A DNA stretch of 64,000 bases from Cutibacterium granulosum (GTDB taxonomy: Bacteria; Actinomycetota; Actinomycetes; Propionibacteriales; Propionibacteriaceae), in contig NZ_LT906441.1 of assembly GCF_900186975.1 (NCBI RefSeq), positions 1,674,001 through 1,738,000 on the forward strand. The letters are read 5' to 3'. The translations under genes were made by a program, and so were the position numbers. Below are positions 9,495 to 28,290 of this stretch, piece after piece. The notes under the pieces were generated by a model, which saw only the letters and a list, made by a program, of their open reading frames with translations, was not told where the DNA came from and did not search any database. How positions within the stretch are numbered: the first letter of the stretch is position 1; every line of letters begins with the position of its first letter.

Positions 9495-11561
9495 TCACGC
9501 GTCAGGAGTGATGATCCGCAGGATCTCGTCGCCGTACAGCTCAACCTTGCGTCTGCCGATCCCCGGAATGGCAAGCAGATCCTCCTGGGTACGCGGCTCA
9601 TGCTCTGCAATCGCCAGCATCGTCACGTCAGTGAAGACCACGAATGGCGGCATGCTGTCTCGTTCTGCCCGTTCCTTGCGCCACTGCCGCAGCTGGTCGA
9701 CGAGTTCGGCGTCGACGCCCACTTCGCAGGCTAGGTGGTGACCAAGTTTCTGATCCGAAGCGACCGTCATGGGTCCGTTGCACACCGAGCAGGTCGTGAC
9801 CTTGCGTTTCTGACCAGTTCGCCTGGGACGTCTGCGTGTCTGGGTCGGTGTTCCGGGCAGGCCACGAAGAAACCGCGAGATGCCGAATCGGTTCCGTGAA
9901 CTGGCGCTGCGTGAGTACGAGATCCACAGGTGCCTGCGCGCTCTGGTCACGGCAACGTGCAGCAGTCGGCGCTCCTCGGCGATCTCCTCATGCTTGTCGG
10001 CAAGGATGAACGGCACCATGGAGTCCGAGACACCGAACAGCGCCACCACGTCCCACTCCAGGCCCTTGGAGGCATGCATCGTACACAGGGTCACACCGTC
10101 GGTGACGGGAATGTCCTGGCGCCGGGCTCGCTCGCCCAACTCGGTGACGATCCCCGCCAACCCTGCCGACGGGGAGTTCCTCGAGACCGACTGGGCGACC
10201 TCCTGGAGCGCCTGCAGGGACTCCCACCGTTGTCGCACCATCCCGCTGCCCTCCGGAGGTTGGGGGGTCCACCCCTGATCCTCCAGGACTTCGCGAGCAC
10301 GCTGCCCGGGGGCCTGTGGATCCGCCTGCAGTGCTCGGGTGAGCGCGGCAAGGGCCTGTTTCACCTCGGCACGTTCGTAGAAGCGCTCGGCATCCTTGAC
10401 GACGTAGGGCACGTCAAGATCACTGAGGGCAAGTTCCAGTGGTGCAGTCTGGGCATTGGTCCGGTGCAGAATGGCCATCTGCGACCACGGCACCCCATCA
10501 TCGTGCTGACCTCGCAACCACGTGGCGATGGCAGCTGACTCGCTGGCCTCGTCATCAAAGGCACGGTAGATGGGAGGCTCCCCCTGACCCGTCTGGGAGC
10601 GCAGTTTCACTCCGAGATTGTGGAATCTGGCTTCCTCCTTGCCCAGATGATGGGTGAGCAGGGTGTTGGCGAGATCGATGATGGGGGCGGTGGATCGATA
10701 GTTGCGCACCAGCCGTACCTCAATGGTGTCGGGGTGTTCCCGCGGAAAGTTGATGAGGTATCGAGCCTTGGCCCCGGCGAAGGCGTGGATGGCCTGATGC
10801 GGGTCTCCCACCACGCACACGTCATCCCGATCCCCGAACCACAGTTCGAGAAGGGTGTGCTGGATGGGCGAGACGTCCTGGTACTCGTCGACGACGAAGT
10901 GTCGGTACTGGTCATGGACCTGGTCCAGGATGTCTGGATGATCGGCAAGCAGTCCAGCTGCGCACAGCAGGATGTCGTCCAGGTCTATGACGGCAGCCTC
11001 ATGCTTGACGGCTTCGTACCCGGCGAGAACCCGTCCGACCGTGTCCGAGGAAACCCCGGCAACGGCTCGTTGGCGAGCCCTGGCCAGAGGAGGATAGTCA
11101 GTGATCGTGACGTTCGACACCTTGGCCCATGACACCTCTGCCGACAGGTCACGCAACAAGGCGGTGTCCGTGCTGAGCCCACATCGTTGGGCGGCCTGGG
11201 CCAGCATGGGGAATCTCCTCGTGCTCACCGGTGGCAACTCGCAGCCATAGGCTCGAGGCCAGAAGTACTTGATCTGTCGCAGTGCGGCAGAATGGATCGT
11301 TCGGGCCTGCACACCGTGAACACCGAGCCCCTCAAGACGGGTCCGCATGGTGCCGGCAGCTCGCGTGGTGAAGGTGACGGCAAGGGTACGGCGCGGATCC
11401 AGCTTTCCGGTGCAGGCACCGTAGGCGATGCGGTGGGTGATGGCCCGCGTCTTGCCGGTACCGGCACCTGCGATGACGCACACCGGCCCACCGAACGAGG
11501 TCGCCACGCGACGCTGTTCGGGGTCGAGGCCGGCAAGGATCTCCTCTGGTGCATCAATCAC
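9495..11561 (-). CDS. uvrD2: ATP-dependent DNA helicase UvrD2 (SF1, HRDC C-terminus)
   Basis: A 688-residue SF1A helicase. Motif I is GAGTGKT (Lys37), motif II DEYQDVSPIQ, motif III GDPHQAIHAFAGA, motif IV RLVRNYRST, with a late MHASKGLEWDVV and VAVTRARRHLWIS. The C-terminus carries a cysteine motif (CSVCNGPM, about residue 585) and an HRDC domain ending PGIGRRKVELYGDEIL. UvrD2 is the mycobacterial-type helicase essential in M. tuberculosis. Here the second half of the tetracysteine motif reads GHHLAC rather than CxxC. The start is GTG 11561: it gives the N-terminus expected for the family and sits six bases after a TATGGT -10 element, so the mRNA is probably leaderless. It is divergent from recC. 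Confidence 0.93.
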   Translation of the reverse strand: MIDAPEEILAGLDPEQRRVATSFGGPVCVIAGAGTGKTRAITHRIAYGACTGKLDPRRTLAVTFTTRAAGTMRTRLEGLGVHGVQARTIHSAALRQIKYFWPRAYGCELPPVSTRRFPMLAQAAQRCGLSTDTALLRDLSAEVSWAKVSNVTITDYPPLARARQRAVAGVSSDTVGRVLAGYEAVKHEAAVIDLDDILLCAAGLLADHPDILDQVHDQYRHFVVDEYQDVSPIQHTLLELWFGDRDDVCVVGDPHQAIHAFAGAKARYLINFPREHPDTIEVRLVRNYRSTAPIIDLANTLLTHHLGKEEARFHNLGVKLRSQTGQGEPPIYRAFDDEASESAAIATWLRGQHDDGVPWSQMAILHRTNAQTAPLELALSDLDVPYVVKDAERFYERAEVKQALAALTRALQADPQAPGQRAREVLEDQGWTPQPPEGSGMVRQRWESLQALQEVAQSVSRNSPSAGLAGIVTELGERARRQDIPVTDGVTLCTMHASKGLEWDVVALFGVSDSMVPFILADKHEEIAEERRLLHVAVTRARRHLWISYSRSASSRNRFGISRFLRGLPGTPTQTRRRPRRTGQKRKVTTCSVCNGPMTVASDQKLGHHLACEVGVDAELVDQLRQWRKERAERDSMPPFVVFTDVTMLAIAEHEPRTQEDLLAIPGIGRRKVELYGDEILRIITPDA

Positions 11562-11735
11562 AGGTACACCATAGGTGCAGGGTGAGACAGTTCTGCCCCC
11601 ACGACGCAGGTTGCCCACAGAACCGCTCCACGAGCTGTCGTTTTCCACAGCCATGGAAAATGTCTCACCCCTGCATCTAGAGTTCAGACAGCCGAATGGG
11701 CAACGTCCCATGAGGGGAAGGTCTGGAGAGTTCCG
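11562..11735. promoter_or_regulatory. Divergent uvrD2 / recC promoter region with paired inverted TGTCTCAC elements
   Basis: A 174 bp spacer. On the minus strand TGTCTCAC (11589-11582) is followed by 8 bases, then TATGGT (11573-11568), then 6 bases to the uvrD2 GTG. On the plus strand TGTCTCAC (11661-11668) is followed by 9 bases, then TAGAGT (11678-11683) and the recC start 52 bases on. The two elements form a 14-15 bp near-perfect inverted repeat (11576-11589 with 11661-11675). The layout resembles the RecA-independent damage promoter bound by PafBC (TGTCRGTG-N8-TAnnnT). The regulator assignment is an inference; the match covers TGTC, the spacing and the TAnnnT box, not the RGTG half. Confidence 0.6.
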
Positions 11736-14700
11736 ATGGACACGAAACTGCAGCTGAGAACGTACCGGCGATGGGATGGCCTCACCGCCGACGCCGTCGC
11801 ACTGCTCACCTCAGCACGTGAGGATCCCTTTGCCATACCGCTGCTCGTCAGTCCTTCCACGGCTCATGCCCGGGCCGTGGGGCAGGCGGTGGCCGACGAG
11901 GTCGGTGTGGCTGCTGGGCTGCAGGGGAAAACGGCCAGTGCACTGCGCCGTGAGCTGTCACAGTCCCTCCTTGACATGGATCCGCAGGTCGATCCGTGGA
12001 GTGGCTCGGCACTGACCCTGCGAATCTTCGATCTGTTGAGACCCGACGACCCCAACATGGCGGCGGTGTCTGAGCATGTACAGGCATGTCGTGTGAGAGG
12101 AATTGCCCATGCCGACTGGACGACCGCCCAGCAGTTCTCAGCAGTTCTGCAATCGCTCATACACCACTCACCCGCAGTGTTGGAGCAGTGGAGGGCCGGT
12201 GAGGACGTCGACGCCGAAGGCTCTGCCCTGCCCTGGGACAAGGCGTGGTGGCCGCATGTGTGGCGTCTGCTGCATGACGATGGACACCCGGACCCCATGA
12301 CACAGCTGACACAGCTGTGTTCTGCTCTTGGTGCTGCCCCGTTGCGTTGGCCGTCCTGCGTGTGGATCTCACCGGCAGCGCCGGAATGGCAGGATTATTC
12401 GTTGGCGCAGGCGCTCGGTCGTCGCATTCCCGTGACGGTGCTGCACCTTCTTCCCGCATGTGCGGAACACTCCCGGTGGGAACCGTTCAACTCGGTTCGA
12501 GAGCACACGAATCTGCGGTGGCATGAGTGCGTGCAGCAGTGTGGAGGGCAGGCCCACGACCACTGTGATCACGCGGATCCCGAGACCAATACCGGCGCCG
12601 CCGAGGTCGAGGTGCATCTGTGTCACGGTGAGGACCGTCAAGCAGAGGTCTGTGCCGAAGCAGTGTGTGCTGCGCTGCAGGAGTTTCCCGACATCGAGCC
12701 ACGCGATGTCGCCATCACGACATCCACCCATGCTCCACAGGCGCATCTGCTCAGCGCGTTCGCGTACGCCGCCGAATCCGATGGCACCAGTCGCACGAAC
12801 CCCTTGGCACAGTGCCGAATCAGTGGGGCACGCAGCCACCTTCCACCCAATCCGGTGATTCAAGCCGTGTGCACGGTACTGAGACTGTCACGAACCCGCC
12901 AGACCGCCGGCGAGCTCCTCGACCTGTGCACCATGCCAGCGATTGCAGCACGATTCGGATTCACGGCGGACGATCAGGTGACGATTCGTCGTCTTGTCAT
13001 GGATTCGGGAATCCGTTGGGGACTGGACGCCCAGAGCCGATCCCGCGTGGGTCTCGGTGAGATTCGTCAGTCGACCTGGTTCGCCGGAATCGAGCGGCTG
13101 TTGCTGGGCGTGGCCATGTCGGACGACCCGCCGTCCCACATCGACACGGTCACCGCGGTCGGGGACATCGGTTCCCCCACGGTGCCGCTGGTGGGGGCCC
13201 TGGCAGAACTCGTCTCCCGAGTTCGACATGCCATGGTGCTCACCGCCACGTCAGCCACGATGCAACAGTGGGTGGACCGGCTGACCACTCTCATCGACAA
13301 TCTCACCTCACCACCCGCGGAGATGCCGTGGGCCAGGCAGGCTGCGACTGGCCAGATCAACGTTCTGGCACGTGTCGCCCCCCAGTGCAAGGTCGACGCC
13401 ATGATCATCGCTGACCTGCTCGATGAGCAGTCCAGCACCCGTCCTCGTCGCCCATCCTGGTTCAACGGCGACTGCCACATCAGTGACCCGGCGGAGTTGG
13501 ACGGCATCAGCCATGACGTCGTCGTCCTCGTCGATCCCGATGAGGACGAGATCGGCGCCGATCCGTTGCGTGGGCTGCGTGACCCAGCCGATCCGCTGTC
13601 GGACCCGATGGCGCTGCGACACCAGTACCTCTTCGATGCCGTGGCCACTGCGCGGCGCAAGATCGTCGTCGTGGCCCAGAAGATGGATCCCGTGACCAAT
13701 TCCGAGGTGGACCTCGGGCCGTTCGTCTCGACCCTCCGGGGCAATGGCCTGCCACGTCGTCATGAATCATCTGATGGCGTCGAATCGCCCGATGGCGTCG
13801 TGCTGATCTCCCATGGGCTCCAACCTTTCTCACCCCATGAGTTCACCGATCAGTCCGGGCAGTCGTGGCGAAGTTTCGATGTGGTGATGGCCGGAGTCCA
13901 GTTGAATGCGCAACCAGATGTCGAACGATCCCCCCTGCTGCCCAGGCCCACCGATCCACCGGCCCAGATCTACTCCTGCGCCGATGTCTCCACCGCCCTG
14001 TCCAACCCAGCGCGCACGGTGTTGAGAGCCCGAATTGGTGCTCCCGCGGCCAAACGCACCGATGACGTCGTCGAGGAGCTGCCTCTTGATCTCAATGGTC
14101 TGGACAGGTACCAGATTCGAGCTCGACTCCTTGCAGACCTGACGCACGGATCAGACATCGGGACCGCCACCGCTGCCGAGCGGCTGCGTGGAACGACGCC
14201 TCCTGGCGTACTGGGACTCGAGTCATTGAATCGGGCAGGCGAGGAGGCCCTGAGCATTGTCGACCGGGAAGCCACTCTGATCGCCGGTGCACCGCGCCAG
14301 GTGATCGACGTCAACCTCGAGCTCACCGACGGCGACGTCCCCCACCTGCCGTGGGTGGACAGCCATCTCACCGATCCGTACCGCCCCCTGCTGCTCACTG
14401 ATCGGATCGAAACCCATGGCGTCACCCTCGTGCGTATGAGTCCTGCCAACCTCAGCCCACGCACCCTGCTGGAAACGTGGCTCAGGCTTCTTGCGGTGGC
14501 AGTGGCGCAACCGGATGTCACCGGCTGGCGCGCCGCTGTGGTGACCCGTTCAGCAAACCCCGAAATCCTGGTGGCGCCTGATGCGCAGCAGGCACGCACC
14601 ATCCTGGCTGGTCTGGTGCGTGTGGCGTGGTGGTCCTCACAGCAGTTGTTCCCCATGCCTGCCAGGACGGCTGCGGCGCTGACTGAGGTGATCCTTCCCT

Positions 14701-14903
14701 ACCGCCCGAATCGCTGGGTCACTGCGGCACAGGCGGGGTGGAAGGAGGACCATGACTCCAACTGGAGTCCCTTCGCCAGCGCTGACTACAGCGACCTGGA
14801 GCGGCTGTGTCGGCAACACTGCGAGGCCTCCCCCCTCGATCTGGCAAGGTGGCTCATGACACCGATCACAACGGCACGAACCCGCGGTAGGAGATCCCGA
14901 TGA
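11736..14903 (+). CDS. recC: Exodeoxyribonuclease V subunit gamma (RecC)
   Basis: A 1055-residue protein, close to the family's usual 1050-1120. The opening (LLVSPSTAHARAVGQAVADE) matches the RecC segment that follows the helicase-like strand 1. Later HLCHGEDRQAEVCAEAVCAAL (about residues 288-308), followed by EPRDVAITT, is a conserved RecC block. RecC splits the duplex and holds the Chi-reading tunnel in the RecBCD complex, acting on double-strand DNA ends in the cytoplasm. It lacks helicase and nuclease catalytic motifs, as expected. ATG 11736 is preceded by GGAGAG five bases away. Its TGA overlaps the recB ATG, so RecC and RecB synthesis is coupled. It is first in recC-recB-recD. Confidence 0.9.
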   Translation: MDTKLQLRTYRRWDGLTADAVALLTSAREDPFAIPLLVSPSTAHARAVGQAVADEVGVAAGLQGKTASALRRELSQSLLDMDPQVDPWSGSALTLRIFDLLRPDDPNMAAVSEHVQACRVRGIAHADWTTAQQFSAVLQSLIHHSPAVLEQWRAGEDVDAEGSALPWDKAWWPHVWRLLHDDGHPDPMTQLTQLCSALGAAPLRWPSCVWISPAAPEWQDYSLAQALGRRIPVTVLHLLPACAEHSRWEPFNSVREHTNLRWHECVQQCGGQAHDHCDHADPETNTGAAEVEVHLCHGEDRQAEVCAEAVCAALQEFPDIEPRDVAITTSTHAPQAHLLSAFAYAAESDGTSRTNPLAQCRISGARSHLPPNPVIQAVCTVLRLSRTRQTAGELLDLCTMPAIAARFGFTADDQVTIRRLVMDSGIRWGLDAQSRSRVGLGEIRQSTWFAGIERLLLGVAMSDDPPSHIDTVTAVGDIGSPTVPLVGALAELVSRVRHAMVLTATSATMQQWVDRLTTLIDNLTSPPAEMPWARQAATGQINVLARVAPQCKVDAMIIADLLDEQSSTRPRRPSWFNGDCHISDPAELDGISHDVVVLVDPDEDEIGADPLRGLRDPADPLSDPMALRHQYLFDAVATARRKIVVVAQKMDPVTNSEVDLGPFVSTLRGNGLPRRHESSDGVESPDGVVLISHGLQPFSPHEFTDQSGQSWRSFDVVMAGVQLNAQPDVERSPLLPRPTDPPAQIYSCADVSTALSNPARTVLRARIGAPAAKRTDDVVEELPLDLNGLDRYQIRARLLADLTHGSDIGTATAAERLRGTTPPGVLGLESLNRAGEEALSIVDREATLIAGAPRQVIDVNLELTDGDVPHLPWVDSHLTDPYRPLLLTDRIETHGVTLVRMSPANLSPRTLLETWLRLLAVAVAQPDVTGWRAAVVTRSANPEILVAPDAQQARTILAGLVRVAWWSSQQLFPMPARTAAALTEVILPYRPNRWVTAAQAGWKEDHDSNWSPFASADYSDLERLCRQHCEASPLDLARWLMTPITTARTRGRRSR

Positions 14904-17900
14904 CCAGTCCCCACGAGGTCAAGGCCTTCGACATCAGCGGAGAAGTACCGCACGGAACAACACTGCTGCGGGCAAGTGCCGGTACGGGCAAGACGTGGTC
15001 CATCACAGCCATCGTCACCAGGGCAATTCTTGAGGGCGATGTCGACATCTCGCAGGTCCTGCTGGTGACCTTCAACAGATCGGCAGCACGGCAGATGCGG
15101 CACAGGACCTATGCCCGACTGGCCCGCACCGCCGAGATGCTGGAGTCTGGTCTGCCCGCTCGTGATGATCTGGACCATCACCTACTCGCCCAACGGGAGC
15201 GAAGGGACGAGTTCCTCTCCCGTGCTCGAAGTGCCATCCAGCGGTTCAGCACGGCAACGATCGCGACGACGCATGAGTTCTGCGCCCAGATGCTCACCGA
15301 ACTCGGGGTTCTGGCGGATCACGACCTGCGCTCCTCGCTGCTGGCCGATCCCACTCCCTTGGTCGATGAGGTCTCGGCCGATCTGTACCTCTCCCGCTAC
15401 AGCCACGTCCCCAGGCCCCCGAGCAGTGCCACGATCAGGAGCCTTGCCCGAACCGTCGCTGCCCAGTACGGCACGGTCGAGCTGCAACGTGACTCGGACT
15501 CACGGCGTGTCGAGGAACGTCTCGACATTGCCGAGGCGGTACGCACGGAGTCCTCACGCAGGATGCGGGCCGGTGGGCTGCACACCTTCGACGACCTCAT
15601 CGAGGACTTGGCCCGCTCGTTGGGCTCCACGCAGCGTGGTCGAGTGGCTTGCGCGACGCTCGCCGACCGGTTCCATCTGGTCATGGTTGACGAGTTCCAG
15701 GACACCGACCCCCTGCAGTGGGAGATTCTGGCTTCGGCGTTCCATGGACGTAGTGACCTGTGGCTCATCGGTGATCCGAAGCAGTCGATCTACGCCTTCC
15801 GTGGGGCGGACATCCATGCATACCTGGCTGCCACCCGTCAGGTGGACCACACCTACGAGCTGACGACGAACTGGCGATCGGATCAGGGGATCGTTGATGG
15901 GGTGGATCAGCTGTTTCGTCACACCCATCTGGGTGCGGAGGGCATCGAGTTCACCACGGTCAGCGCCCGACACACACATCGCCGGCTCCAGAGCACCGAT
16001 CCCCATAGCTACGACTGGTCGCACCCCGTCCAGATTCGCTGCATCACCGCATCCGATGGATCCCGTCTTTCCTCCGGCAGGGCCGAGGACCTCATCGCCA
16101 AGGACGTCGGAGCACAAATCACTGCCATGCTGGACGGCAGATCCCAGTGGCAGCCCGAGAAGGGCCAACCGTCCCGACCGTTGCAGGCCGGTGACATTGC
16201 CGTGCTCGTCACCGCCAGACGACGGGGCACCAAGATCCAGAACGAGCTGCGAAAGATCGGCCAGCCAGCCGTGTTCACTGGCTCCACCTCGGTGTGGTCC
16301 TCCCCTGCTGCCACGGATTTCCTCGATCTGCTCTCGGCGCTGGACGACCCCGATCCCACCGTCATCTCCAGGATCGCCATGTCGAGGCTCATCGGTGCTG
16401 CACCGTATGACCTGGCCCGACAGGACTCCCAGCTTCGCTCGGCCTTGGCCATGGACATTGCCAACTGGGCACTTGCCTGGCCGAATCTGGGCCCATGGGG
16501 CGTCATCGAATCACTTCTGCACCGTCCGGGCTCATTGGATTCGATGTTGACCGGCCCGCAGGCGGAACGTTACGTCACGGACCTACGACAGCTCGCCCAG
16601 GAGACGCATGTGTGGGCATGCGATCAGCCCACCATGCCCACGCCTGCCCAGACATGTGCATGGGTCGAGGATCAGGCCAGATATGCGCCCCAGGAGACAC
16701 CGCGCCGGCTGGAGACCGACCGTAATGCCGTCACCATCATGACGGTTCACCAGGCAAAGGGGCTGGAGTTCCCCGTCGTCCTGCTGCCGGACGCCACCTT
16801 GAGCTGGATCTCGAAGAATGGTGAAGGCACTCGTAGGAAGCAACGGGCATCTCGTACGTTCATGCGCGATGATGGCTCTCCCCTGGTGTGGTTCGACGGG
16901 GAACGGCGCGTTCTCAACCTGTCCGATGTCAATGATCCTGCTCGACTGGAGGCATGGGCACAGATTCGCCATGACGCTCTCGCCGAGGAGCTGCGCAAGC
17001 TCTACGTGGCGCTGACCCGGAGCCAGTCGGCCGTACGACTGTGGTGGGCTCCAGTACCTGGCCGAATCGGTGACTCCGGTCTGCAGCGGCTCCTCGCGCT
17101 GGAGTCTGCCGGGTCGGAGGCTCCCGTGTTCCCCGAGCCCGTCAACGACGCAGCAGTCTCACCACCCTGGCTGAGCCCGAGAGTGGGTGGGGCCTCGATC
17201 GAAGCGGTACCCGTCGAGGTGACGGAAGCGCCTTCTCGAGAGTTACCCGTCCCCCCCGTCGGCGGGACACCGGCCACATTCACCCGTAGCGTCGACCATC
17301 AGTGGAAACGTACCTCGTACTCGGGGCTGACTGCCGGCATCCACGGTGCCACATCATCGATGGCCGACCTCGTCGACGCCTCGGCAGGCCAGGACGAGCC
17401 GGACGAGGATGCCCTGGGCACTTCCCCGGACGTCTCCCCATCAACCGGTGACGGGCTGTGCGCCATGCCTGGCGGAACCTCGTTCGGACTGGTGGTTCAC
17501 GAGATCCTCGAGCATGTCGACACCTCGGTTCCTGATCTGTCTGCCGAGATCACGAACTGGACCGCGCGAAAACTGCGTGCTGAGCCCATTGACGGTGTCG
17601 GGGCAACCAGCCTTGCAGCCGGCCTCGTCGACGTCATGCACACCGACCTGGGAGAACTGGCACCTGGCCAGTGCCTCGCCGACTTCAAGCCGTCCGACCG
17701 GCTCGCCGAGCTGGACTTCGAGATGAGACTGGCTCCGTCATCGCCGATGTCCAACACGGTTGGTGCACTTGCCCAAGCCCTCAGCGACCGTTCGCTGGTG
17801 CCCGAGAACGACCCACTCGCCAGCTATGGGAGGGTTCTGGCAACCTCACCAGCAGCTTCCACGGTCCTGTCCGGGTATCTCACCGGTTCCATCGACGCCG

Positions 17901-18271
17901 TACTACGCCGTCCCGACGGACGGTTCCTCGTCATCGACTACAAGACCAACCGTGCGCCGCGACCAGCAGGCCAACCCCTTGAGCCACGTGCGTACGACGT
18001 CACCACCATGACATCCATGATGATCAGCTCGCACTATCCCCTGCAGGCGCTGCTCTACAGCGCAGCCCTGCACCGCTACCTGTCACACACGATGCCCGGG
18101 TACGATCCCGCCACCTGCCTGGGGCCTGTGGGGTATCTCTTCGTACGCGCCATGGCAGGGGTGGCCACGCCAGCTGATGCCTCGATGCCCTATGGGGTGT
18201 TCACGTGGTCAGTGAATCCGGCCCTGGTGGTGGCCGTCAGCGACATCCTGGGAGGACGCCATGAGCACTGA
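14900..18271 (+). CDS. recB: Exodeoxyribonuclease V subunit beta (RecB helicase-nuclease)
   Basis: A 1123-residue SF1A helicase fused to a RecB nuclease domain. Motif I is ASAGTGKTW (Lys31), motif II VDEFQDTDPLQW, motif III IGDPKQSIYAFRGADIHAYL, and the late helicase motif MTVHQAKGLEFPVVLLPD is followed by KLYVALTRSQSAV. The C-terminal nuclease has the histidine segment SFGLVVHEILEHVD (about residue 865) and the metal/catalytic FLVIDYKTNRAP (about 1012). It is the 3'-5' motor and only nuclease of RecBCD. It overlaps recC by ATGA with TAGGAG upstream, and overlaps recD by 11 bases, so subunit stoichiometry is probably set by coupling. Confidence 0.93.
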   Translation: MTSPHEVKAFDISGEVPHGTTLLRASAGTGKTWSITAIVTRAILEGDVDISQVLLVTFNRSAARQMRHRTYARLARTAEMLESGLPARDDLDHHLLAQRERRDEFLSRARSAIQRFSTATIATTHEFCAQMLTELGVLADHDLRSSLLADPTPLVDEVSADLYLSRYSHVPRPPSSATIRSLARTVAAQYGTVELQRDSDSRRVEERLDIAEAVRTESSRRMRAGGLHTFDDLIEDLARSLGSTQRGRVACATLADRFHLVMVDEFQDTDPLQWEILASAFHGRSDLWLIGDPKQSIYAFRGADIHAYLAATRQVDHTYELTTNWRSDQGIVDGVDQLFRHTHLGAEGIEFTTVSARHTHRRLQSTDPHSYDWSHPVQIRCITASDGSRLSSGRAEDLIAKDVGAQITAMLDGRSQWQPEKGQPSRPLQAGDIAVLVTARRRGTKIQNELRKIGQPAVFTGSTSVWSSPAATDFLDLLSALDDPDPTVISRIAMSRLIGAAPYDLARQDSQLRSALAMDIANWALAWPNLGPWGVIESLLHRPGSLDSMLTGPQAERYVTDLRQLAQETHVWACDQPTMPTPAQTCAWVEDQARYAPQETPRRLETDRNAVTIMTVHQAKGLEFPVVLLPDATLSWISKNGEGTRRKQRASRTFMRDDGSPLVWFDGERRVLNLSDVNDPARLEAWAQIRHDALAEELRKLYVALTRSQSAVRLWWAPVPGRIGDSGLQRLLALESAGSEAPVFPEPVNDAAVSPPWLSPRVGGASIEAVPVEVTEAPSRELPVPPVGGTPATFTRSVDHQWKRTSYSGLTAGIHGATSSMADLVDASAGQDEPDEDALGTSPDVSPSTGDGLCAMPGGTSFGLVVHEILEHVDTSVPDLSAEITNWTARKLRAEPIDGVGATSLAAGLVDVMHTDLGELAPGQCLADFKPSDRLAELDFEMRLAPSSPMSNTVGALAQALSDRSLVPENDPLASYGRVLATSPAASTVLSGYLTGSIDAVLRRPDGRFLVIDYKTNRAPRPAGQPLEPRAYDVTTMTSMMISSHYPLQALLYSAALHRYLSHTMPGYDPATCLGPVGYLFVRAMAGVATPADASMPYGVFTWSVNPALVVAVSDILGGRHEH

Positions 18272-20189
18272 TGTGGTTCCCATCTCCGCCAGCCCGACCT
18301 TGGCAACGTTGTGCACTGCGGGCGTGCTGTCGGCCGCCGACATCCATCTTGCGACGATGGTGTGCCGGCTCTGTCACGAGTCCGAGGAATCGGTACGTCT
18401 GGCCCTGGCATTGACCAGTCGCGAACTGCGACACGGATCGGTCTTTCTCAATCCCCGGACGATACGCGAGACCATCCTCACCCAGCTGGACGATCCGGCC
18501 CTGCGCGGACTGATGGACGAGCAGACTGCTGCTGCGATCGAGCAGGTGGAGCAGATGACCTGGCCCGATCCGGACCACTGGATGCTGACCCTGCAGAGGA
18601 GTCCTGCGATAGCTGATCGAAGATCTGCCAGCAACGCACGTCCTGCCCGACTGGACTCAGACCGGTTGTACCTGGAACGGTACTGGCTCGACGAACAGAC
18701 CGTGGCCACACGACTCGCGCACCTCGCCCACGAGAAAACCTCCATCACCGACGAGCAGTGCCGGCAGGTGCTCGACGAGGTCCAGGAGACGATACAGCGC
18801 CCACACTTCCAGCTCGACGAGTTCCAGGTTGACGCGGTTCGAGCGGCTGCAACGCACAATGTCAGCGTTCTGTCCGGCGGCCCCGGAACCGGCAAGACGA
18901 CCATGGTGTGCATCATCCTCGCCGTGCTGGCCAGCGCCGATCCACATCTGGGCCGGATCGCCCTGTCCGCGCCCAGTGGCAAGGCGGCAAGTCGACTGCG
19001 TGACGCCGTGACCAGCACATCCCATGCCCTGGGTCTCAGGCCCCTGCCAACTGCCTCACAGGCCACCACGGTCCACTCACTGCTGGGGTGGCAGGGGCCG
19101 GGCAGTGGATTCCGGTACGACAAGCTCAACCAGTTGCCCTATGACGTCATCGTCGTTGACGAGGCATCAATGCTGTCGGTATCCCTCATGGCTCGTCTGC
19201 TCGACGCCATCGGGGCGCGGACCCGGCTGATCCTCGTTGGTGACCCGGATCAGCTGGTGTCAGTCGAGGCTGGATCCGTCCTGGCCGATATCGTCGCTTC
19301 CCATGGTGAGCTGGGCAAGGCGGATGACGGGGGCGAGGACAGCGGGCTCGCCAGCGAGGTGCTTCCGGTGTCCAAACTCACTCACAACCACAGATCTGGC
19401 GGTGCCATTGCAGCACTGGCCGAGGCGGTGCAGTACGAGGAGCACGGGAAGAGCCTGGACGACGCCGTCGATGAGGCACTGGAGATCCTGACCACCAGCC
19501 CTGACCAGATCTCGTTCATCGATGCCGACCCTGCCGAGACCCCCCTGTCGAGCCTTCCCGAGTTGCAGGAAACCATCATCTCCACAGCACAGGCTGTCCG
19601 CCAGCAGGCAACGACCGGTGCGGATGACGATGCGCTGGCATGTGCCGATGGGCACCGTCTGCTGTGCGCACACCGTCTTGGCCCCTATGGGGTGGCGTCG
19701 TGGTCGGCCCAGATGGTCGAGACCCTGTCATTGACCTTGCCGGGACTCGGGCAGGGCCAATGGGTCGTGGGCGAGACGACGATGGTGACGCACAACATGC
19801 GTCAGTTCGAGGTCAACAATGGTGACTGTGGTGTCATCGTCCAGACGTCGCCCGTTCCCACGGTTGCCCTGCCGGGAAAGGGCAATTCGAGTCGTAGACT
19901 CCCCTGCTCCCTGCTGTCGACCATGTTTCCGCTGCAGGCCATGACCGTTCACAAGTCCCAGGGAAGTCAGTTCGACGACGTCACCGTGGTGTTGCCGCCA
20001 CCGGACTCGGCACTGCTCACCCGGGAACTCTTCTACACCGCGATCACCCGAGCACGACGGCATCTGACGGTCATGGGGACCCGCGAATCCATTCGACGAG
20101 CCATTGGACAGCCCACGCAACGAAACTCCGGGCTGAAACGTCAGTGGCAGCGGATGAGGCAGGGAGGAATCAGCAGCTCCGACGCCTGA
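18261..20189 (+). CDS. recD: Exodeoxyribonuclease V subunit alpha (RecD, SF1B helicase)
   Basis: A 642-residue protein. An N-terminal RecD domain (HYxCHESEESVRLAL-like segment at residues 35-50) precedes a SF1B ATPase: Walker A SGGPGTGKTTMV (Lys212), VDEASMLSVSLMARLLD, VGDPDQLVSVEAGSVLADIV, then the UvrD_C_2 part MTVHKSQGSQFDDVTVVLPP and LFYTAITRARRHLTV. RecD is the 5'-3' motor of RecBCD. ATG 18261 lies just behind GGGAGGA and overlaps the recB stop by 11 bases. It is the last gene of the recCBD operon and is followed by a repeat-rich spacer against the convergent nudC. Confidence 0.93.
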   Translation: MSTDVVPISASPTLATLCTAGVLSAADIHLATMVCRLCHESEESVRLALALTSRELRHGSVFLNPRTIRETILTQLDDPALRGLMDEQTAAAIEQVEQMTWPDPDHWMLTLQRSPAIADRRSASNARPARLDSDRLYLERYWLDEQTVATRLAHLAHEKTSITDEQCRQVLDEVQETIQRPHFQLDEFQVDAVRAAATHNVSVLSGGPGTGKTTMVCIILAVLASADPHLGRIALSAPSGKAASRLRDAVTSTSHALGLRPLPTASQATTVHSLLGWQGPGSGFRYDKLNQLPYDVIVVDEASMLSVSLMARLLDAIGARTRLILVGDPDQLVSVEAGSVLADIVASHGELGKADDGGEDSGLASEVLPVSKLTHNHRSGGAIAALAEAVQYEEHGKSLDDAVDEALEILTTSPDQISFIDADPAETPLSSLPELQETIISTAQAVRQQATTGADDDALACADGHRLLCAHRLGPYGVASWSAQMVETLSLTLPGLGQGQWVVGETTMVTHNMRQFEVNNGDCGVIVQTSPVPTVALPGKGNSSRRLPCSLLSTMFPLQAMTVHKSQGSQFDDVTVVLPPPDSALLTRELFYTAITRARRHLTVMGTRESIRRAIGQPTQRNSGLKRQWQRMRQGGISSSDA

Positions 20190-20594: not shown

Positions 20595-21614
20595 TCACGA
20601 CTGGCCCACGACCACGGGAAGACCCACGTCACTCTCCGGGGCAGGCAACGCATCGTGCAGCCACGCCTCGACCAGACGACGCGCCACCGAGATCGGCGAG
20701 GGCATGCCCATGGCCCCGGATGCCGTGAGTCGGCGTACCTCGTCGGTGGTGTACCAACCGCCTTCGGCCAGCTCGACGCCGTCCACCCGAACCTCACCTG
20801 TGGCTCTGGCCACGTAGGCGAGCATGAGCGATCGTGGGAATGGCCACGGTTGTGAGGTGAGGTAGCGCACGGCGCGTACGTCCAGGCCGGTCTCTTCCCG
20901 AACCTCTCGTGCCACGGCATGTTCAGCCGTCTCCCCCGCCTCGATGAATCCGGCCACGACAGACATCCGTCCGGGGTCCCACGTGGCCTGCCTGGCGAGC
21001 AGGAGACGATCGTCGTCATCGAGCACCGCGACGATCACCGCCGGATCGGTGCGCGGGAACACCAGCGCACCACAGTCGACACAACGCCGGCTGGGACCAC
21101 CAACCGTGACGACGGTACGCCCGTGGCACCGTATGCACGTGGGATCACTCTCATGCCAGGCGAGCAGTGCCAACGCCGACCAGAGCAGTTCCTGGTCGGA
21201 GCGATCCAGCGCTGCCTGACGTGCGGCAACCGGCCGGGCGACATCCCACGACCCCTGAGCCGATGATGCCGACGTCGAGTGTGAGCCCTGATCGGATCTG
21301 CCGAATGGACTCGCCCCACCAGCATCATCCATCTGGCCCATCACCGCACCGAGGTCCTCGACCCGCTGGGTAAACCAGGCCACACCATTGCGAACACCAA
21401 GGAGGTGCTGGCGCTGATCGTCACGTGGCCCCACGGTGGGCACTCCGACAAGACGTCCCGGCTTGTCGGAGTGGTCCCCGGCAAAGAGTACCTGGTCATC
21501 GCCGTCGACGAGGAGCAGTCGGGCACTCGGTCCATCCCACAACTGGGCCACGACGGCTGGATCGTCACGACTCTCGGAGCGTCGGTCAAGACTCGGGGTG
21601 CAGAACGTCGTCAT
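20595..21614 (-). CDS. nudC: NAD(+) diphosphatase NudC (Nudix hydrolase, RNA deNADding type)
   Basis: A 339-residue protein. The middle carries a zinc ribbon (CIRCHG and CVDCGA), followed by the Nudix domain with box GFIEAGETAEHAVAREVREE and the NudC-specific SQPWPFPRSLM about 17 residues after the box. It hydrolyses NAD(H) to NMN(H) and AMP, and in other bacteria removes NAD caps from RNA. The start ATG 21614 overlaps the adnB TGA (ATGA) with no good ribosome site, so translation depends on coupling. It is last of adnA-adnB-nudC; M. tuberculosis also keeps nudC (Rv3199c) near adnAB. Confidence 0.92.
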   Translation of the reverse strand: MTTFCTPSLDRRSESRDDPAVVAQLWDGPSARLLLVDGDDQVLFAGDHSDKPGRLVGVPTVGPRDDQRQHLLGVRNGVAWFTQRVEDLGAVMGQMDDAGGASPFGRSDQGSHSTSASSAQGSWDVARPVAARQAALDRSDQELLWSALALLAWHESDPTCIRCHGRTVVTVGGPSRRCVDCGALVFPRTDPAVIVAVLDDDDRLLLARQATWDPGRMSVVAGFIEAGETAEHAVAREVREETGLDVRAVRYLTSQPWPFPRSLMLAYVARATGEVRVDGVELAEGGWYTTDEVRRLTASGAMGMPSPISVARRLVEAWLHDALPAPESDVGLPVVVGQS

Positions 21615-24600
21615 GACCGTGAGTCTAGAACCCTGCTCAGCTCTTCTGTGTCCCACAGTTGTGCGGGTTCAGCATCGACTCCGTCACCGACGTGGTGGAA
21701 CAGCGCACGAACTCGATTCGGGGAAATCGCCAGGGCCTGTGCCCATGCCTGCCGGTACACCGACAGCTGGATCGGATCGGCCTTGCCGGGCCGTGAGGTC
21801 TTCCAGTCAACGACGATGAATCCGCCGTCGACCTGCGGATCGGCAAAGATCGCATCCATCCGGCCTCGCACCACGTGCCCAGCGAGATTGAGGGCGAAGG
21901 GTTCCTCCACGTCAACTGGTTTCAGCCGTGCCCATGCACTGGTCTCGAACTGATCCTGCAGGTGTTGGATCGTTCGTTCCGGGACGCCTGGGGCGAGCTC
22001 CCAAACGGGGTACAGATCGGGCCGCAACCGGTGGCACACCCACTCATGGAACACCGAACCCACGGTTGCCCCCCGGCTGACCGGCTGCGGCATCGGTCGG
22101 CGCAGCCGGTCCAGGAATGCTTCGTGGTCCTGGTCGATCTGCATGAGCTGTGAGGTGGTCAAAGAGGTGGGAAGGTCGTCGACGTGTTCTCGACGCAGTC
22201 GTTCCTCGTTGATGAGCACTTCGGCATCATGTTTCCACTGATCGGCCACGTCAGCGTCGTCCGGATCGTCAAGGCTCGGAAGCACGACCTCTGGGCCCTC
22301 GGCAATCCATTCCGTCACCAGACGACGAACTGCCACATCATCGTGATACGCGATCTGCGGCCACTGTCGTCCAACGGGTAGATCGCTGCCGGTCGGCGCA
22401 GCCACGTCCTCCTCATCCAGCGATGCGACGATCTGCTCGTAGCGGCTCACGATCTGCTGTCGATCCGGGGAATCCTGGGGGCACTGCTCCAGGACCTGTT
22501 CCTGAATCGCCACGATCGTGTCATGAATGGTGGTGAGGTAGGCGCTGGGATGACGCATCCGCACGATGCCCGACTCCCATTTGTGCCACGAGACGATGAG
22601 CCGGGACTTGGCCCGTGTCACGGCAACATATGCCAGGCGATCCTCTGCGGAGCGGGCACTCTTCCTGCGCTCTGCGTCATATTTCCTCAACGCGTCATGA
22701 TGACCTGAGACCGGCAAGGGTATTGCATCGGAGTCGCCACGCACCTGAGGGGGAATTGCCGCCGCCTGGGTGGCGAAATTGTCGCCGGATCTTTTGCTGG
22801 GGAAAACGGTGTCGACCATGAACGGCAGGAAAACCATCGGCCACTCCAGCCCCTTCGCCGCATGGACCGTTGCGATGACCACGGCATCGGGAAGATCGAC
22901 AAGTTCTCGGTCAAGGCCCTTGCCCTCATCGTCCTCGATGCGCATCCACTCCACGACCTCGACAAGGCCCATCGTCGAGTCATCGGTACAGACGTCACGA
23001 ACCTCGCGCCACAAGGCATCGACGTGCCGGCGTCGAGCATCGCGACGATCCGGCTCATCGGCAGCAATGTCGACATTGAGGCCGGTGACAGCAGCAATAC
23101 GCAGCACCAGGTCGTCGGGGCAGTCCGCTGCGCTGGACTCGATGAATGTCATCTCACGTTTCACCCCGGCGATGGTGCGAGCAAGGTGCGGTTCGTCCGC
23201 AATGAACCCGGGATCGTCCACGGCGTCGACGAGGAAGACGTCGGGATGGGCGTGGGGATCGCTGCCGTCACTCGACCGCTCTCGATGCAGCGCAATCGCC
23301 TTGGCGCGCTCGTGCAACCGTTCGAGCTCCTTCGTGGTCAGTCCCCATCTCGGTGCGGTCAACAGGGTTGCCAGAGCCTCATTGTCACGCCGATCCACCA
23401 GGAGCCGCAGATGGCTGTAGATCAAGGCGATGTCGGGTACTCGCAACAGGGCTGACAGGTTCGCCAGGCACACCGGCACACCACGCGCACTCAAGGCAAG
23501 GTACAGATCGGAAATCTTGGCATTCGTGCGCATGAGGACGCCGATGTCCTTCCACCGACCAACCGTGCCACGTTCATGAGCCTCGACAATCTGGTCTGCG
23601 ACGCCCTCACATTCCTGCTCCCAGGTGTCAAAGGTGTGCACCTGCACTGGCATGTCCACCGGCAGAGGTGATTCCTCTCCCCCGGCATGTTCATCTTCGG
23701 GGACTCGCAGTTGCTTGACAACATTTCCGATCTTCGGATCTGATCTGATGCCCTCGGAAATGGCATTGGCACAGTCAAGGATGGTCTGGTTCGAACGCCG
23801 ATTCTGGGTCAACGAGTATTGACCATTGTCGTACGCGTCCGGCCCGTCACGGTGGGGAAAGTGTCGTGGGAAGTCCAAGATGTTGTTGGCGGCAGCTCCA
23901 CGCCAGCCATAGATGGCCTGCAATGGATCACCCACTGCCGTGACGGCATGGCCCCTGCCGTTCTCCGGCGTCGAACCGCTGAACAGACTCGCCAGCAGAC
24001 GTGCCTGGGAGCTCGAGGTGTCCTGGTACTCATCGAGCAGCACCACCGCATACCGAGACCGTATCTGTTGGCCGATCCGTGGAAAGTCTCGAACCAGCTG
24101 GATGGCCTGGTTGAGACGGTCGGAGAACCGGAAGAAACCCCGTTCGGCAAGACGGTTCCGATATTCCTGTGCGTACCACATCAGCTGATCGCGTTGCTCC
24201 GCCGCGTTCTGGGCCCTGACCACGTCGACGTAGGGCTCGCCGTTCTTCCTGGGAGCAGCCTGGTCAAGTTGTTGGCGCCACGCGTCATTGGCGGCACGAA
24301 GATCGTCCATCGACACTGCGTGCGATGAGGCCTGCTCGGACAGCGAGAGGACGCCCTGCGCTATCGATCGGGCTGTCACCTGTCCGGCGCGAGGCGGAAC
24401 TTTCTCGGGATCGTGCAGCACGTCCAGGGCCACCTGGACGCAGCGGGCGTCCGAGATGAGTCGTGTCGCTGGATCGACGCCGATCCATGCCCCGAACTCA
24501 GAGACCAGATTGGCGGCAAAGCTGTCGTAGGTGAGGACGGTCGGTTCCTGGTCGTCCGGCTGCAGGAGACCAGCCTTGGTGAGGTTGCGTCCCACCCGAG

Positions 24601-24862
24601 TACGCAGCTCTGCAGTGGCCTTGCGAGTGAAGGTCAATCCCAGAACCTGGTCCGCTCGCACCAATCCCTTGGCGACGAGCCAGGTCACTCGCGCGGCCAT
24701 GACCGTCGTCTTCCCGGTGCCAGCTCCGGCAATGATGACTGACGGCTCCAGCGGGGCAGCTATTGCCATGGCCTGCTCGGTGGAGGGGCGAAAGCCGAAC
24801 AGTTCCGTCATCTGCTCCAGCATCTCGGCGGTGGGCCGTGGCATCGAGCCATTCGTGCTCAT
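21611..24862 (-). CDS. adnB: AdnB, lead motor and nuclease subunit of the AdnAB resection complex
   Basis: A 1083-residue SF1A helicase with a C-terminal RecB-family nuclease. Intact helicase motifs are IIAGAGTGKTTVM, LLDEYQDTSSSQ, VGDPLQAIYGWRGAA, SLTQNRRSNQ, VHAAKGLEWPMVFLP and YVAVTRAKSRLIVSW. The nuclease segment is GGFIVVDWKTSRPG, with an upstream GSVFHEWVCHRL histidine. This is the Rv3201c-type subunit that powers AdnAB translocation in mycobacteria. AAGGAG stands five bases before ATG 24862 (alternative ATG 24865), which overlaps the adnA TGA. Its own TGA overlaps the nudC start. It has no Fe-S cysteine set, unlike AdnA. Confidence 0.92.
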   Translation of the reverse strand: MSTNGSMPRPTAEMLEQMTELFGFRPSTEQAMAIAAPLEPSVIIAGAGTGKTTVMAARVTWLVAKGLVRADQVLGLTFTRKATAELRTRVGRNLTKAGLLQPDDQEPTVLTYDSFAANLVSEFGAWIGVDPATRLISDARCVQVALDVLHDPEKVPPRAGQVTARSIAQGVLSLSEQASSHAVSMDDLRAANDAWRQQLDQAAPRKNGEPYVDVVRAQNAAEQRDQLMWYAQEYRNRLAERGFFRFSDRLNQAIQLVRDFPRIGQQIRSRYAVVLLDEYQDTSSSQARLLASLFSGSTPENGRGHAVTAVGDPLQAIYGWRGAAANNILDFPRHFPHRDGPDAYDNGQYSLTQNRRSNQTILDCANAISEGIRSDPKIGNVVKQLRVPEDEHAGGEESPLPVDMPVQVHTFDTWEQECEGVADQIVEAHERGTVGRWKDIGVLMRTNAKISDLYLALSARGVPVCLANLSALLRVPDIALIYSHLRLLVDRRDNEALATLLTAPRWGLTTKELERLHERAKAIALHRERSSDGSDPHAHPDVFLVDAVDDPGFIADEPHLARTIAGVKREMTFIESSAADCPDDLVLRIAAVTGLNVDIAADEPDRRDARRRHVDALWREVRDVCTDDSTMGLVEVVEWMRIEDDEGKGLDRELVDLPDAVVIATVHAAKGLEWPMVFLPFMVDTVFPSKRSGDNFATQAAAIPPQVRGDSDAIPLPVSGHHDALRKYDAERRKSARSAEDRLAYVAVTRAKSRLIVSWHKWESGIVRMRHPSAYLTTIHDTIVAIQEQVLEQCPQDSPDRQQIVSRYEQIVASLDEEDVAAPTGSDLPVGRQWPQIAYHDDVAVRRLVTEWIAEGPEVVLPSLDDPDDADVADQWKHDAEVLINEERLRREHVDDLPTSLTTSQLMQIDQDHEAFLDRLRRPMPQPVSRGATVGSVFHEWVCHRLRPDLYPVWELAPGVPERTIQHLQDQFETSAWARLKPVDVEEPFALNLAGHVVRGRMDAIFADPQVDGGFIVVDWKTSRPGKADPIQLSVYRQAWAQALAISPNRVRALFHHVGDGVDAEPAQLWDTEELSRVLDSRS

Positions 24863-27800
24863 CATGACTCCTTCTCCTGCGAACCAGACGTTGTGCGGAC
24901 CTCAGATTCTCTCGACACGTCGACGGCCGGATCCGGTGGGACGAGAGCCGGGCACCCGGAACGAACTGGGCAGAACTGACAGCCGTGATTCGTCACTGCC
25001 GCGCGTTCCACGCCGAGGACGACCCGAGCCGCCCTGTCGAGGTAGTACCGGACCCAGTCGTGAAACCCTGCCGCTGCCGTGAGGACAGCACCACGTGCCC
25101 ATGGCTCGTCTCCCACCGGTGAGATGGATCTCACCCTGGCCTCTCCGCCACGTTTGTGGGGCTCATCCATGAGGTAAACGAGCTCAGCAGGCCCCACGTC
25201 GGCTGGTTTGCGGCCCCCATACCCTTCTGCCAGTGCGGTCTGGTAGATGGCCACCTGGATGACATGGGGATTCATCGATTCGTGCGGCCGAGAACCGGTC
25301 TTGTAGTCGATGACGATGTGGTTTCCGGCTTCGTCTCGTTCCAGACGATCAATACTTCCCGCGACGTGCACCATGGCGCTGGGCAGGTCGAAGACATGCT
25401 TGATGGGCACCTCCGTGCCCACCAGTTCACGCTGGCTGCTCTTCACGAGCCAGGCATCGAGTCGGCGCAGTCCCTCGCGACAGTTCTCGAGGAGAACGTG
25501 GGACTCCCATGCGTAGTCGAAGGACAGTGTTGTCCATTCAGCGTCCAACTGATCCATGGCACGTTCGAGACACCAGTGCTCGGCATTCTCCTCAGCGATC
25601 CGGTGCACCAAGGAACCGGCCTGGGCCTTGGCAGACATCGGGCCCGAGGCGCCCAGTCGGCGACTGAGGAACCATCGTCTGGGACAGTCGAGCAGTTCCC
25701 CCACATGTGACGGTGAGAGATACACGTCTGGTTTGTCGGCCGTCTCACCACCCTGTCGTGCGGGGTCGATGCCCGACCCCCACCATGTATGAGGATCTGC
25801 GTGGACGGCAAGGGGGTGATCATCCTTCTTCTGGGCGGCCAACCATGCCAGTTGACGAGCTGCGTGTCTGCGCAGGGTGACGGGTAGCTGGTCATCGGCG
25901 GCACTGCGCCGCAAGTCTGCGACCAGGCTGGTGAGGTTCTCATGTCCGAGTGCCGCACTGCTCCGAGCCTGCTCCCGGTCATCATTTTCTTGACACAGGT
26001 CACGCACCGGGGTGAGGAACCTGGATGGGAGGATTCCCTCCTCGTCATTGCGCACGGCGGTGAGCACCACGACGTGCCGCGCTCGGGAACATGCCGTGAG
26101 GAACAACCGTCGTTCCGACTGGAGGGTTTCGGACCAGTCTCGGGGCGGCAGCGGCCCGTCCGGTGACCACACATCCGCGCCCGTCATGGACCCCGTGAGG
26201 TTCATCGCGGGCCACGACTGTTCTTCCAGCCCATAGAGGGCGACGAGGTCGAACTGCGTCTCCTTGGCACGATGGGCGGTCATGATGCACACCCCGTTGC
26301 GATCGCGATCCGTTTCCCGGCTCCGGTCCGCGGGGGTCTGCTCGGACAGGGCCTCGGCAATGAACTGACGAGCTCCGTGGGTGCCGATGTGCTCACCATG
26401 TCGTCCAGCCATGTCGAACAAGGCGCACAACCCGTCGAGCTCCCGGTTGGCCGTCGCGTCGGCGTCCAGGGCTCGTTGCTTGAGGACGTCTGGCCATGTC
26501 TGCAGCGTGGAATTGGGGGCGCTCTCACCACCCCACACTCGCCACAGGGAGACGTCGACCGGTCCGTTCTTCCTGAGATTCACGGCAGCCATGTCGATAC
26601 GACGGATGAGGGCGCTCACCCCGGAAAGTTCACGACGCAACTCTGCTGGGAGGATGGGCACCTCGGAATCGCGGGAATCAGTGGTTTCCGAGGTCTGAGA
26701 AGTGGATGCGTCCTCTCCCGAGGCAATGGTGTCAGAGCCATCGTCGACGTGCCGGGGCTCGTGTGGAGCCTCTGGCAGGTTTCCCGGCGCACCAGGCACA
26801 TCGACATCTGCTGCCTTCTTGGATCGAAGCAGGGACGTCAGCTCCGCCCAGTTCACCGAGCCACCATGAACAGCCAGCCAGGCACGGAACCGATGCACCT
26901 GTTCATGGGTCGTCGCCGACAAGGGGCTGTCGAGCAGACGATCCACCATGCGTCGCTCGTAGTCATCATCGCATCCCTCGGCCAGATCGATGGCGGCCTG
27001 CAACCCGACGATCAGTTCACGGACGGCTGGCACCTCGGACAGGACGACGTCCTGGGAACTCCGATAAGCCGGTACGTCTTCAGCAGCCAGCAAGGTGGCC
27101 AGGACATCCACGTCCGAACCGTTGCGGGCCAGGACGGCCATCTGTTCCCAGGCGATTCCTTCATATAGGTGGGCTCGGCGCAAGCGCCGTGCAATGGAGC
27201 GTGCCAGCCGTGCCTTGCTGGATTCCTCGAGGTACTCACATGTCCCGGAGCCCCCCGACCAGCGTTCCGACGGCATCTGCCGCAGGTCCACGGTGGGTTG
27301 GGCGGGTAGTTGGCTTCGTACCCTCTCGACCAGCTCGTGCACATCTCCACAGCACCGCATGTCGGTGGTGAGGTGGTGAATGGCAGGTTGCCGCCCATGA
27401 CCGGTGAGTTCGTCGAGGAACCCGTCGATGCGTCCAGACTGCGCACCACGGAAGGTGCCGATCGTCTGGTCCGGGTCAGCGGTGAGGAACAGGGGGATGC
27501 CCGCCCCGCTCAGCTGCCCCAACAGCACTGTCTGGCAGTGATCGACCTCGGTGACGTCATCGCAAATGACGAGTTTGATCCGCTCGCGCACCTCGGCACG
27601 TCGCGTCGGACTGCTCAGCACGTCGATTGCCCGATGGATGAGCCCGGTGTAGTCGAAATCCCCGGACTCGGCGAGCCGGTGCTCGTACTCGGAGAGGATC
27701 TCGCCGGTGACTCGCCAGTCGTCGCGCCGGAATCGTCGCCCTTGGGCTGCCAGCTCGGCACCTCGTACACCAGCCTGACTGATGGTGGCGGCCATGAACC

Positions 27801-28260: not shown

Positions 28261-28290
28261 GACATTCATGAAACCAGAAGGGGTGAGACA
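28261..28290 (-). promoter_or_regulatory. Putative damage-type promoter of adnAB-nudC (TGTCTCAC element)
   Basis: Read on the minus strand, TGTCTCAC (28290-28283) is followed by 9 bases, TTTCAT (28273-28268), then 7 bases to the adnA ATG. The same octamer and following CCC occur at both uvrD2 and recC, and nowhere else that I noticed in the window. The TTTCAT box is a poor TAnnnT. No ribosome site precedes the ATG, so a leaderless transcript is likely. The link to PafBC-type damage regulation is inferred. Confidence 0.5.

Follow-up and report, generated by a model that had tools for sequence, protein, structure and literature searches.

A re-spelled, probable DNA-damage signal in Cutibacterium granulosum: promoter comparisons suggest that regulator and binding sites changed together

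Repair operons and their promoters in the window

The window, i.e., the whole 64,000-nucleotide stretch of DNA analyzed here (G+C 64%), belongs to a C. granulosum genome that forms a single contig of 2.175 Mb. It harbors a 174-bp spacer (11562-11735) from which two repair units diverge. On the minus strand lies uvrD2 (9495-11561), coding for a UvrD helicase with an HRDC domain (Pfam UvrD-helicase, UvrD_C and HRDC, in a search run from 11555). The plus strand carries recC (11736-14903; RecC_C, Exonuc_V_gamma), recB (14900-18271; UvrD-helicase, UvrD_C, PDDEXK_1) and recD (18261-20189; RecD_N, AAA_19, AAA_30). A scan of named genomes with RecC as the query found no relative.

Checked against the sequence, the spacer carries two outward-facing promoters, one per strand. 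That of uvrD2 has the element TGTCTCACC at 11581-11589 (minus strand), which includes the octamer TGTCTCAC at 11582-11589, followed after 8 bases by a -10-like box, TATGGT (11568-11573, minus strand). The GTG start codon (11559-11561, minus strand) comes six bases past this box, and the uvrD2 transcript is probably leaderless. The recCBD promoter has TGTCTCACC at 11661-11669 (plus strand; octamer at 11661-11668) and, 9 bases after the octamer, the box TAGAGT (11678-11683, plus strand); here, the ATG at 11736 comes after a longer leader, in which a ribosome site is apparent. The first-pass annotation of this DNA, which had described the octamer on both strands, the 8 or 9 bases and TAnnnT box after it, and the six bases between the uvrD2 box and GTG, is thus confirmed in its letters and places. 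Nevertheless, the octamer alone occurs in the window at chance level (three copies, compared with a shuffle mean of 3.75), so that the inverted pair by itself proves little.

Between the two octamers, TTGCCCACA and TTTTCCACA (11611-11619 and 11641-11649) each depart by one base from the DnaA-box consensus, TT(A/G)TCCACA. The window contains two copies of the former and one of the latter, and an inverted repeat, TTTTCCA/TGGAAAA, is also found between the octamers. Control of the divergent pair by DnaA is possible from these letters.

A third TGTCTCACC copy (28282-28290, minus strand), absent from the first-pass annotation, marks the promoter of an adnAB-like operon. It lies 21 nt upstream of where the AdnA-like gene probably starts, the second ATG being taken as the start. 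Its probable -10 box, TTTCAT (28268-28273, minus strand), departs from TAnnnT and ends seven bases before that ATG, at 28260. The AdnA-like (24862-28260, minus strand) and AdnB-like (21611-24865, minus strand) helicase-nucleases, whose genes overlap, both match Pfam UvrD-helicase, UvrD_C and PDDEXK_1, and their names are inferred. The RecBCD genes (11736-20189) and the AdnAB-like pair (21611-28260) are convergent, lie about 1.4 kb apart and have the promoter element in common.

The element in the genome and its counterparts in congeners

Across the C. granulosum genome, the pattern TGTCTCAC-N8/9-TAnnnT has ten matches and its reversal none. The base after the octamer is C in all ten, giving TGTCTCACC; the octamer of the first-pass annotation is real and placed as it had said, but the conserved unit is this 9-mer. 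The 9-mer occurs 25 times, compared with 8 for the reversed 9-mer, and TAnnnT follows 10 of the 25 copies where 0.28 would be expected (P ~1e-13, assuming p(A) = p(T) = 0.178 and independence). Thirteen copies are found 19-75 nt upstream of a start codon, and the probability of as many lying within 80 nt of a start is ~1e-12, a rough value for an assumed ~2000 genes. The remaining 12 fall inside reading frames or cannot be clearly assigned to a gene. The copy at locus L069, with a box-like CACAGT ahead of a membrane protein gene, may be a fourteenth promoter site.

At the 13 promoter sites, the octamer is separated from the box by 8 bases in nine cases and by 9 in four. The box is TAnnnT at ten sites and differs at radA, ssb and adnA; at 7 of these 10, the start codon comes 6-8 bases past the box as judged by eye, a leaderless-like arrangement. 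A search of the genome for the 9-mer, N7 and the box with one mismatch allowed returned seven exact matches, three with a changed box and none with a change within the 9-mer. A short A-rich stretch, seen by eye immediately 5' of TGTC at most of the 13 sites (L063-L086), may belong to the element.

Enrichment at repair genes had been set beforehand as the test that could refute the first-pass reading, and nine of the 13 promoter-placed copies do stand ahead of genes for repair, replication or segregation (uvrD2, recCBD, the adnAB-like operon, pcrA, sbcD, radA, ssb, dnaX and ftsK). The other four, with no known repair role, are dapB, rph, ponA (a ponA-type PBP) and one unknown gene. Target families were taken from Pfam and the gene names are inferred, pcrA being also named pcrA/uvrD1. 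The unknown gene (L004:1529-2212) has a perfect TGTCTCACC promoter with a TAnnnT box and codes for a 227-aa protein without a Pfam match; this protein may represent a new damage-response gene.

The consensus reported for PafBC promoters is tTGTCRgtg - 8 nt - TannnT (PMC5656591). The C. granulosum class has in common with the PafBC-activated mycobacterial promoter, RecA-NDp or P1, the TGTC core, the place of the second half, the location at repair genes, and PafB and PafC in the genome. In spacing and box it agrees in part, with 8 bases at nine of the 13 sites and TAnnnT at ten. It differs by its second half, which is RGTG in mycobacteria and TCACC in all 13 C. granulosum sites, by the 9-base spacing of four sites, by a spelling without near variants, and by recA, the classic PafBC target, which was not encountered when the genes that follow the 25 copies were read. 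While the TGTC core is present in 13 of 13 sites by construction of the search, outside support for it comes from uvrD2 in the eight congeners (see below).

The C. granulosum sites are also stricter than the degenerate sites of its relatives. The loose TGTC-box pattern has 51 matches in the genome, below the 133 of the reversed control. Among the 50 of these 51 that were listed, nine have TCACC (seven at N12, two at N13), the one outside the listing being that of pcrA. The 41 others listed divide into 19 at N12 and 22 at N13, which makes a degenerate class undetectable in this genome and leaves one spelling. TGTCRGTG-N8-TAnnnT is not found among the same 50, two of which carry RGTG but with the spacing at 9 bases.

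The octamer-box pattern shows no enrichment in the remaining eight genus genomes, which have 0-2 matches apiece. The TATGGT box of the uvrD2 promoter is identical in all nine genus genomes searched, and TGTC is present there in all eight congeners. In the seven congeners G001-G007, this promoter reads TGTCGG(T/A/C)(G/C)-N8-TATGGT at the same place, with an element TGTCGGNN that takes the forms TGTCGGTC (three genomes), TGTCGGTG (two), TGTCGGAG and TGTCGGCC; by its letters, this is the known PafBC motif or close to it. The eighth, G008, has TGTCGTCG, also at the same place. On the recC side, TGTC-N12-TAnnnT is present in six of the seven genomes G001-G007, G003 being the exception, and the elements are TGTCGTAC in G008 and TGTCAGAC in G004. 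Similarly, radA has TGTC-N8-CAGGGT by eye in six of the seven, those in which the anchor was found, and TGTCGTAC-N8-CACACT in G008, CACACT being also the box of C. granulosum. The adnA counterpart of G008 has TGTCACCG-N8-TTCGAT upstream.

The comparison with G008 covered ten of the 13 promoters, namely the nine given next and that of pcrA. Among the counterpart genes, sbcD, dnaX, ponA and dapB were identified with Pfam, and rph and adnA by eye. After TGTC, bases 5-8 in G008 are ACAC at sbcD, GTAC at recC and radA, GTCG at uvrD2 and ponA, GTAG at dnaX, GGAT at dapB, AGTG at rph and ACCG at adnA, as opposed to TCAC(C) at all nine in C. granulosum. The dapB promoter of G004 has ACAG. These nine are not a blind count, since six of them (sbcD, recC, dnaX, ponA, dapB, rph) came up when 29 sites were traced from the G008 listing of 71; starting from the genes, three of four have a site (uvrD2, radA and adnA, not pcrA). 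None of the eight congeners has such a site at the corresponding place of the pcrA promoter, which indicates that the pcrA site is new in C. granulosum.

The congeners' TGTC-N12-TAnnnT class corresponds to that of C. granulosum at uvrD2, recC, radA, dapB, dnaX, ponA, sbcD, rph and adnA, but it has mixed bases after TGTC in place of TCACC, and the spacing is one base longer in C. granulosum at recC, rph and adnA. It is visible as an excess of N12 over N13, with 80 versus 20 among the 100 G004 sites listed out of 115, and 51 versus 20 for the 71 sites of G008. Among 20 G004 sites picked by eye from the 100 listed (L090-L109), many precede housekeeping genes, and the genes read by eye from translations after G004 sites include mfd, parE, valS, gltX, clpP, cmk, RNase J and orn. 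The congeners' class is thus not purely a damage class and may be broader than DNA damage.

PafB, PafC and the spelling in distant actinobacteria

A search at E 0.001 found only two WYL-domain genes in the C. granulosum genome. They are adjacent, both are open reading frames, and they code for PafB and PafC; the former matches mycobacterial and Arthrobacter PafB (9fnd, 7p5x and 6sj9). With G004 as the reference, PafB of C. granulosum has 45.5% identity, compared with 62.3% for that of G008, and the values for PafC are 40.8 and 65.3%. The gap is limited to 2-4 points for the yardstick proteins UvrD2 (61.2 vs. 65.5%), RadA (87.2 vs. 89.3%) and PcrA (76.2 vs. 80.4%), and the same PafB/PafC contrast is obtained with G011, from another genus, as the reference. 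The winged-helix domains follow suit, with 51-55% identity for PafB and 39-49% for PafC in pairs that include C. granulosum, as against 71-74 and 66-79% among the others. By these identities, both subunits have diverged unusually fast in the C. granulosum lineage, a change that could also be decay.

In the published complex, PafB was reported to contact the -26 element through its helix-turn-helix, and PafC to contact domain 4 of SigA through its own (PMC11804915). Two arginines of the recognition helix, R44 and R48, point outward, and changes at the equivalent residues reportedly had the same effect as deleting pafBC (PMC6789036). In the alignment, C. granulosum PafB retains both arginines and the FERDK core. 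Horizontal gain of PafB from a lineage that uses TCACC is not supported, as the best matches among the genomes searched are in its own family, G008 (50%) and G011 (44%). The literature library searched contained no paper joining PafBC with Cutibacterium, and none with TGTCTCAC or TGTCTCACC as a whole word.

The 9-mer with its box is found in 58 of 396 genomes of the phylum, C. granulosum included, mostly as a single match, and reversed-pattern matches also occur (at most two per genome). Higher counts are found in two distant families, f69 and f12 (five in G329, four in G213, three each in G057 and G191), and 10 of the 16 f12 genomes have no TGTCTCACC match. Downstream frames were read at 40 of the 77 places listed outside C. 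granulosum, chosen by eye in favor of high-count lineages. Nine of ten downstream proteins, also chosen by eye, had Pfam matches: PD-(D/E)XK nuclease, RecA, gyrase B, RadC, ComM-like Mg-chelatase, DUF222, UvrD helicase, Mrr and DNA polymerase III delta. Thus, the 9-mer precedes recA, radC, gyrB and UvrD-like genes in distant actinobacteria; at many others of the 40 places no repair gene is apparent, and at two there is no frame at all. A PafB match was obtained in six of the seven distant 9-mer genomes searched, G213 having none. In a scan of named genomes, f12 PafB had its best matches in Actinomycetota and Acidimicrobiia metagenome genomes. These distant sites imply that the TCACC spelling is older or recurrent: the second half that had been called clade-specific is peculiar to C. 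granulosum within its genus but recurs in distant actinobacterial lineages.

There might be at least two PafBC dialects, RGTG and TCACC, with more than one switch between them. A tentative lead is that switching was helped by PafB residue 43, which precedes R44 in Arthrobacter numbering, (T)CACC being paired with arginine or lysine at this position, and RGTG with an acidic, amide or small residue; C. granulosum would then represent a recent regulon-wide switch beside a half-way G008. In an alignment of 19 genomes and two solved sequences, position 43 is R or K in C. granulosum, G008, G329, G057, G234, G191, G159 and G308, seven of these eight being C. granulosum itself or genomes selected for having TGTCTCACC sites. 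It is acidic, amide or small in the other aligned genomes and in both solved proteins, RGTG use having been counted in few of these, so that the dialect link is a lead only. G008 has lysine at this position and mixed spellings such as ACACC, GTACC and GGTG. Against the link, G008 has no TGTCTCACC site despite its lysine, and G064 has one such site but a glycine. Lysine at position 43 is common in Actinomadura. Eighty named PafB loci, of which 76 have a basic residue and 4 glutamate, were collected using a pattern restricted to R, K or E at position 43. Their flanks, 1.25 Mb in total, contain no TCACC site with a box, and TGTC-N12-TAnnnT shows no excess in those of the basic group (10 at N12, compared with a mean of 9.4 at other spacings); they neither support nor refute the link.

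A probable PafBC-dependent promoter class and its alternatives

The counterpart promoters of congeners, together with the fast divergence of PafB and PafC, indicate that a PafBC-type regulon has very probably been re-spelled in the C. granulosum lineage. More specifically, TGTCTCACC is likely to be the -26-type half of a promoter at which PafBC acts by sigma adaptation, re-spelled across the regulon beside a fast-changing PafBC. The first-pass proposal that uvrD2 and recCBD are under one PafBC-like regulator is supported in this form, with the corrections given above. From the sites and their places, the promoters of relatives and the change of the two subunits, we infer PafBC binding, damage induction, leaderless starts and mutual change of regulator and sites. 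With single-stranded DNA held, the PafB-PafC heterodimer would use PafB to bind TGTCTCACC and would position the housekeeping sigma factor at the -10 box, which lies 7 or 8 bases past the 9-mer, and uvrD2, recCBD, adnAB and ten other units would rise jointly upon DNA damage. The second half of the element would have passed, promoter by promoter, from a degenerate RGTG-like form as in congeners to a fixed TCACC, with retention of TGTC, the approximate spacing and a -10-like box. Both subunits changed fast in the same lineage, and regulator and sites would have changed each because of the other. Weighing against this reading are the lack of recA among the genes read, the four targets with no known repair role, the four 9-base spacings and three boxes other than TAnnnT, the pcrA promoter without a site in congeners, the housekeeping genes behind G004 sites, the strictness of the spelling and the chance that the fast change of PafBC is decay.

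The kind of system is already known, and what is new is the regulon-wide re-spelling beside fast-changing regulator subunits. Control through a WYL domain by single-stranded DNA after damage has been reported for DriD and other WYL regulators, as for PafBC (PMC11804915, PMC12340889). These are described as homodimers (PMC11804915), in contrast with the PafB and PafC pair of C. granulosum.

It is improbable, if worth considering, that another activator, for instance a ClgR-like one, now reads TGTCTCACC at inherited PafBC promoters while PafBC decays. Relaxed constraint would also produce the unusual divergence of the two subunits, and ClgR was reported to recognize the mycobacterial P1 promoter (PMC5656591). 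On the other hand, pafB and pafC are open and adjacent, R44, R48 and the FERDK core are kept, TGTC and the box persist at promoter spacing in the counterpart promoters, and most of the distant 9-mer genomes searched have PafB.

Somewhat less probable still is that TGTCTCACC is simply the form that a constitutive housekeeping promoter takes in this species, independent of any damage regulator. The related class of G004 does front housekeeping genes too, and dapB, rph and ponA are among the C. granulosum targets. Nevertheless, the bias of the targets toward repair, replication and segregation genes argues against it, as does the presence of the element before recA, radC, UvrD-like, DUF222 and Mrr genes, among others, in distant lineages. 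In addition, a transcription start 7 bases past the box would place the element at roughly -28 to -20 and not at -35. Finally, a single palindromic operator of a LexA-like repressor between uvrD2 and recC is very improbable, since the two copies are indeed inverted, 71 bp apart, but TGTCTCACC is no palindrome, 11 of the 13 promoter-placed copies stand alone without a nearby partner, and their spacing tracks the -10 box.

On the PafBC reading, predictions of damage regulons that use only the mycobacterial motif will overlook them wherever a lineage has the other spelling. The comparison suggests a re-spelled damage signal whose regulator and binding sites changed together, and the genus would thereby provide a natural experiment on joint change of a global activator and its promoters, with common promoters that have a new half-site at the same place. 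Two regulator subunits have changed fast in a single lineage of this genus, for which several genomes exist, and the comparison would offer a direct route to the residues of PafB (or PafC) by which the second half of the -26 element is recognized.
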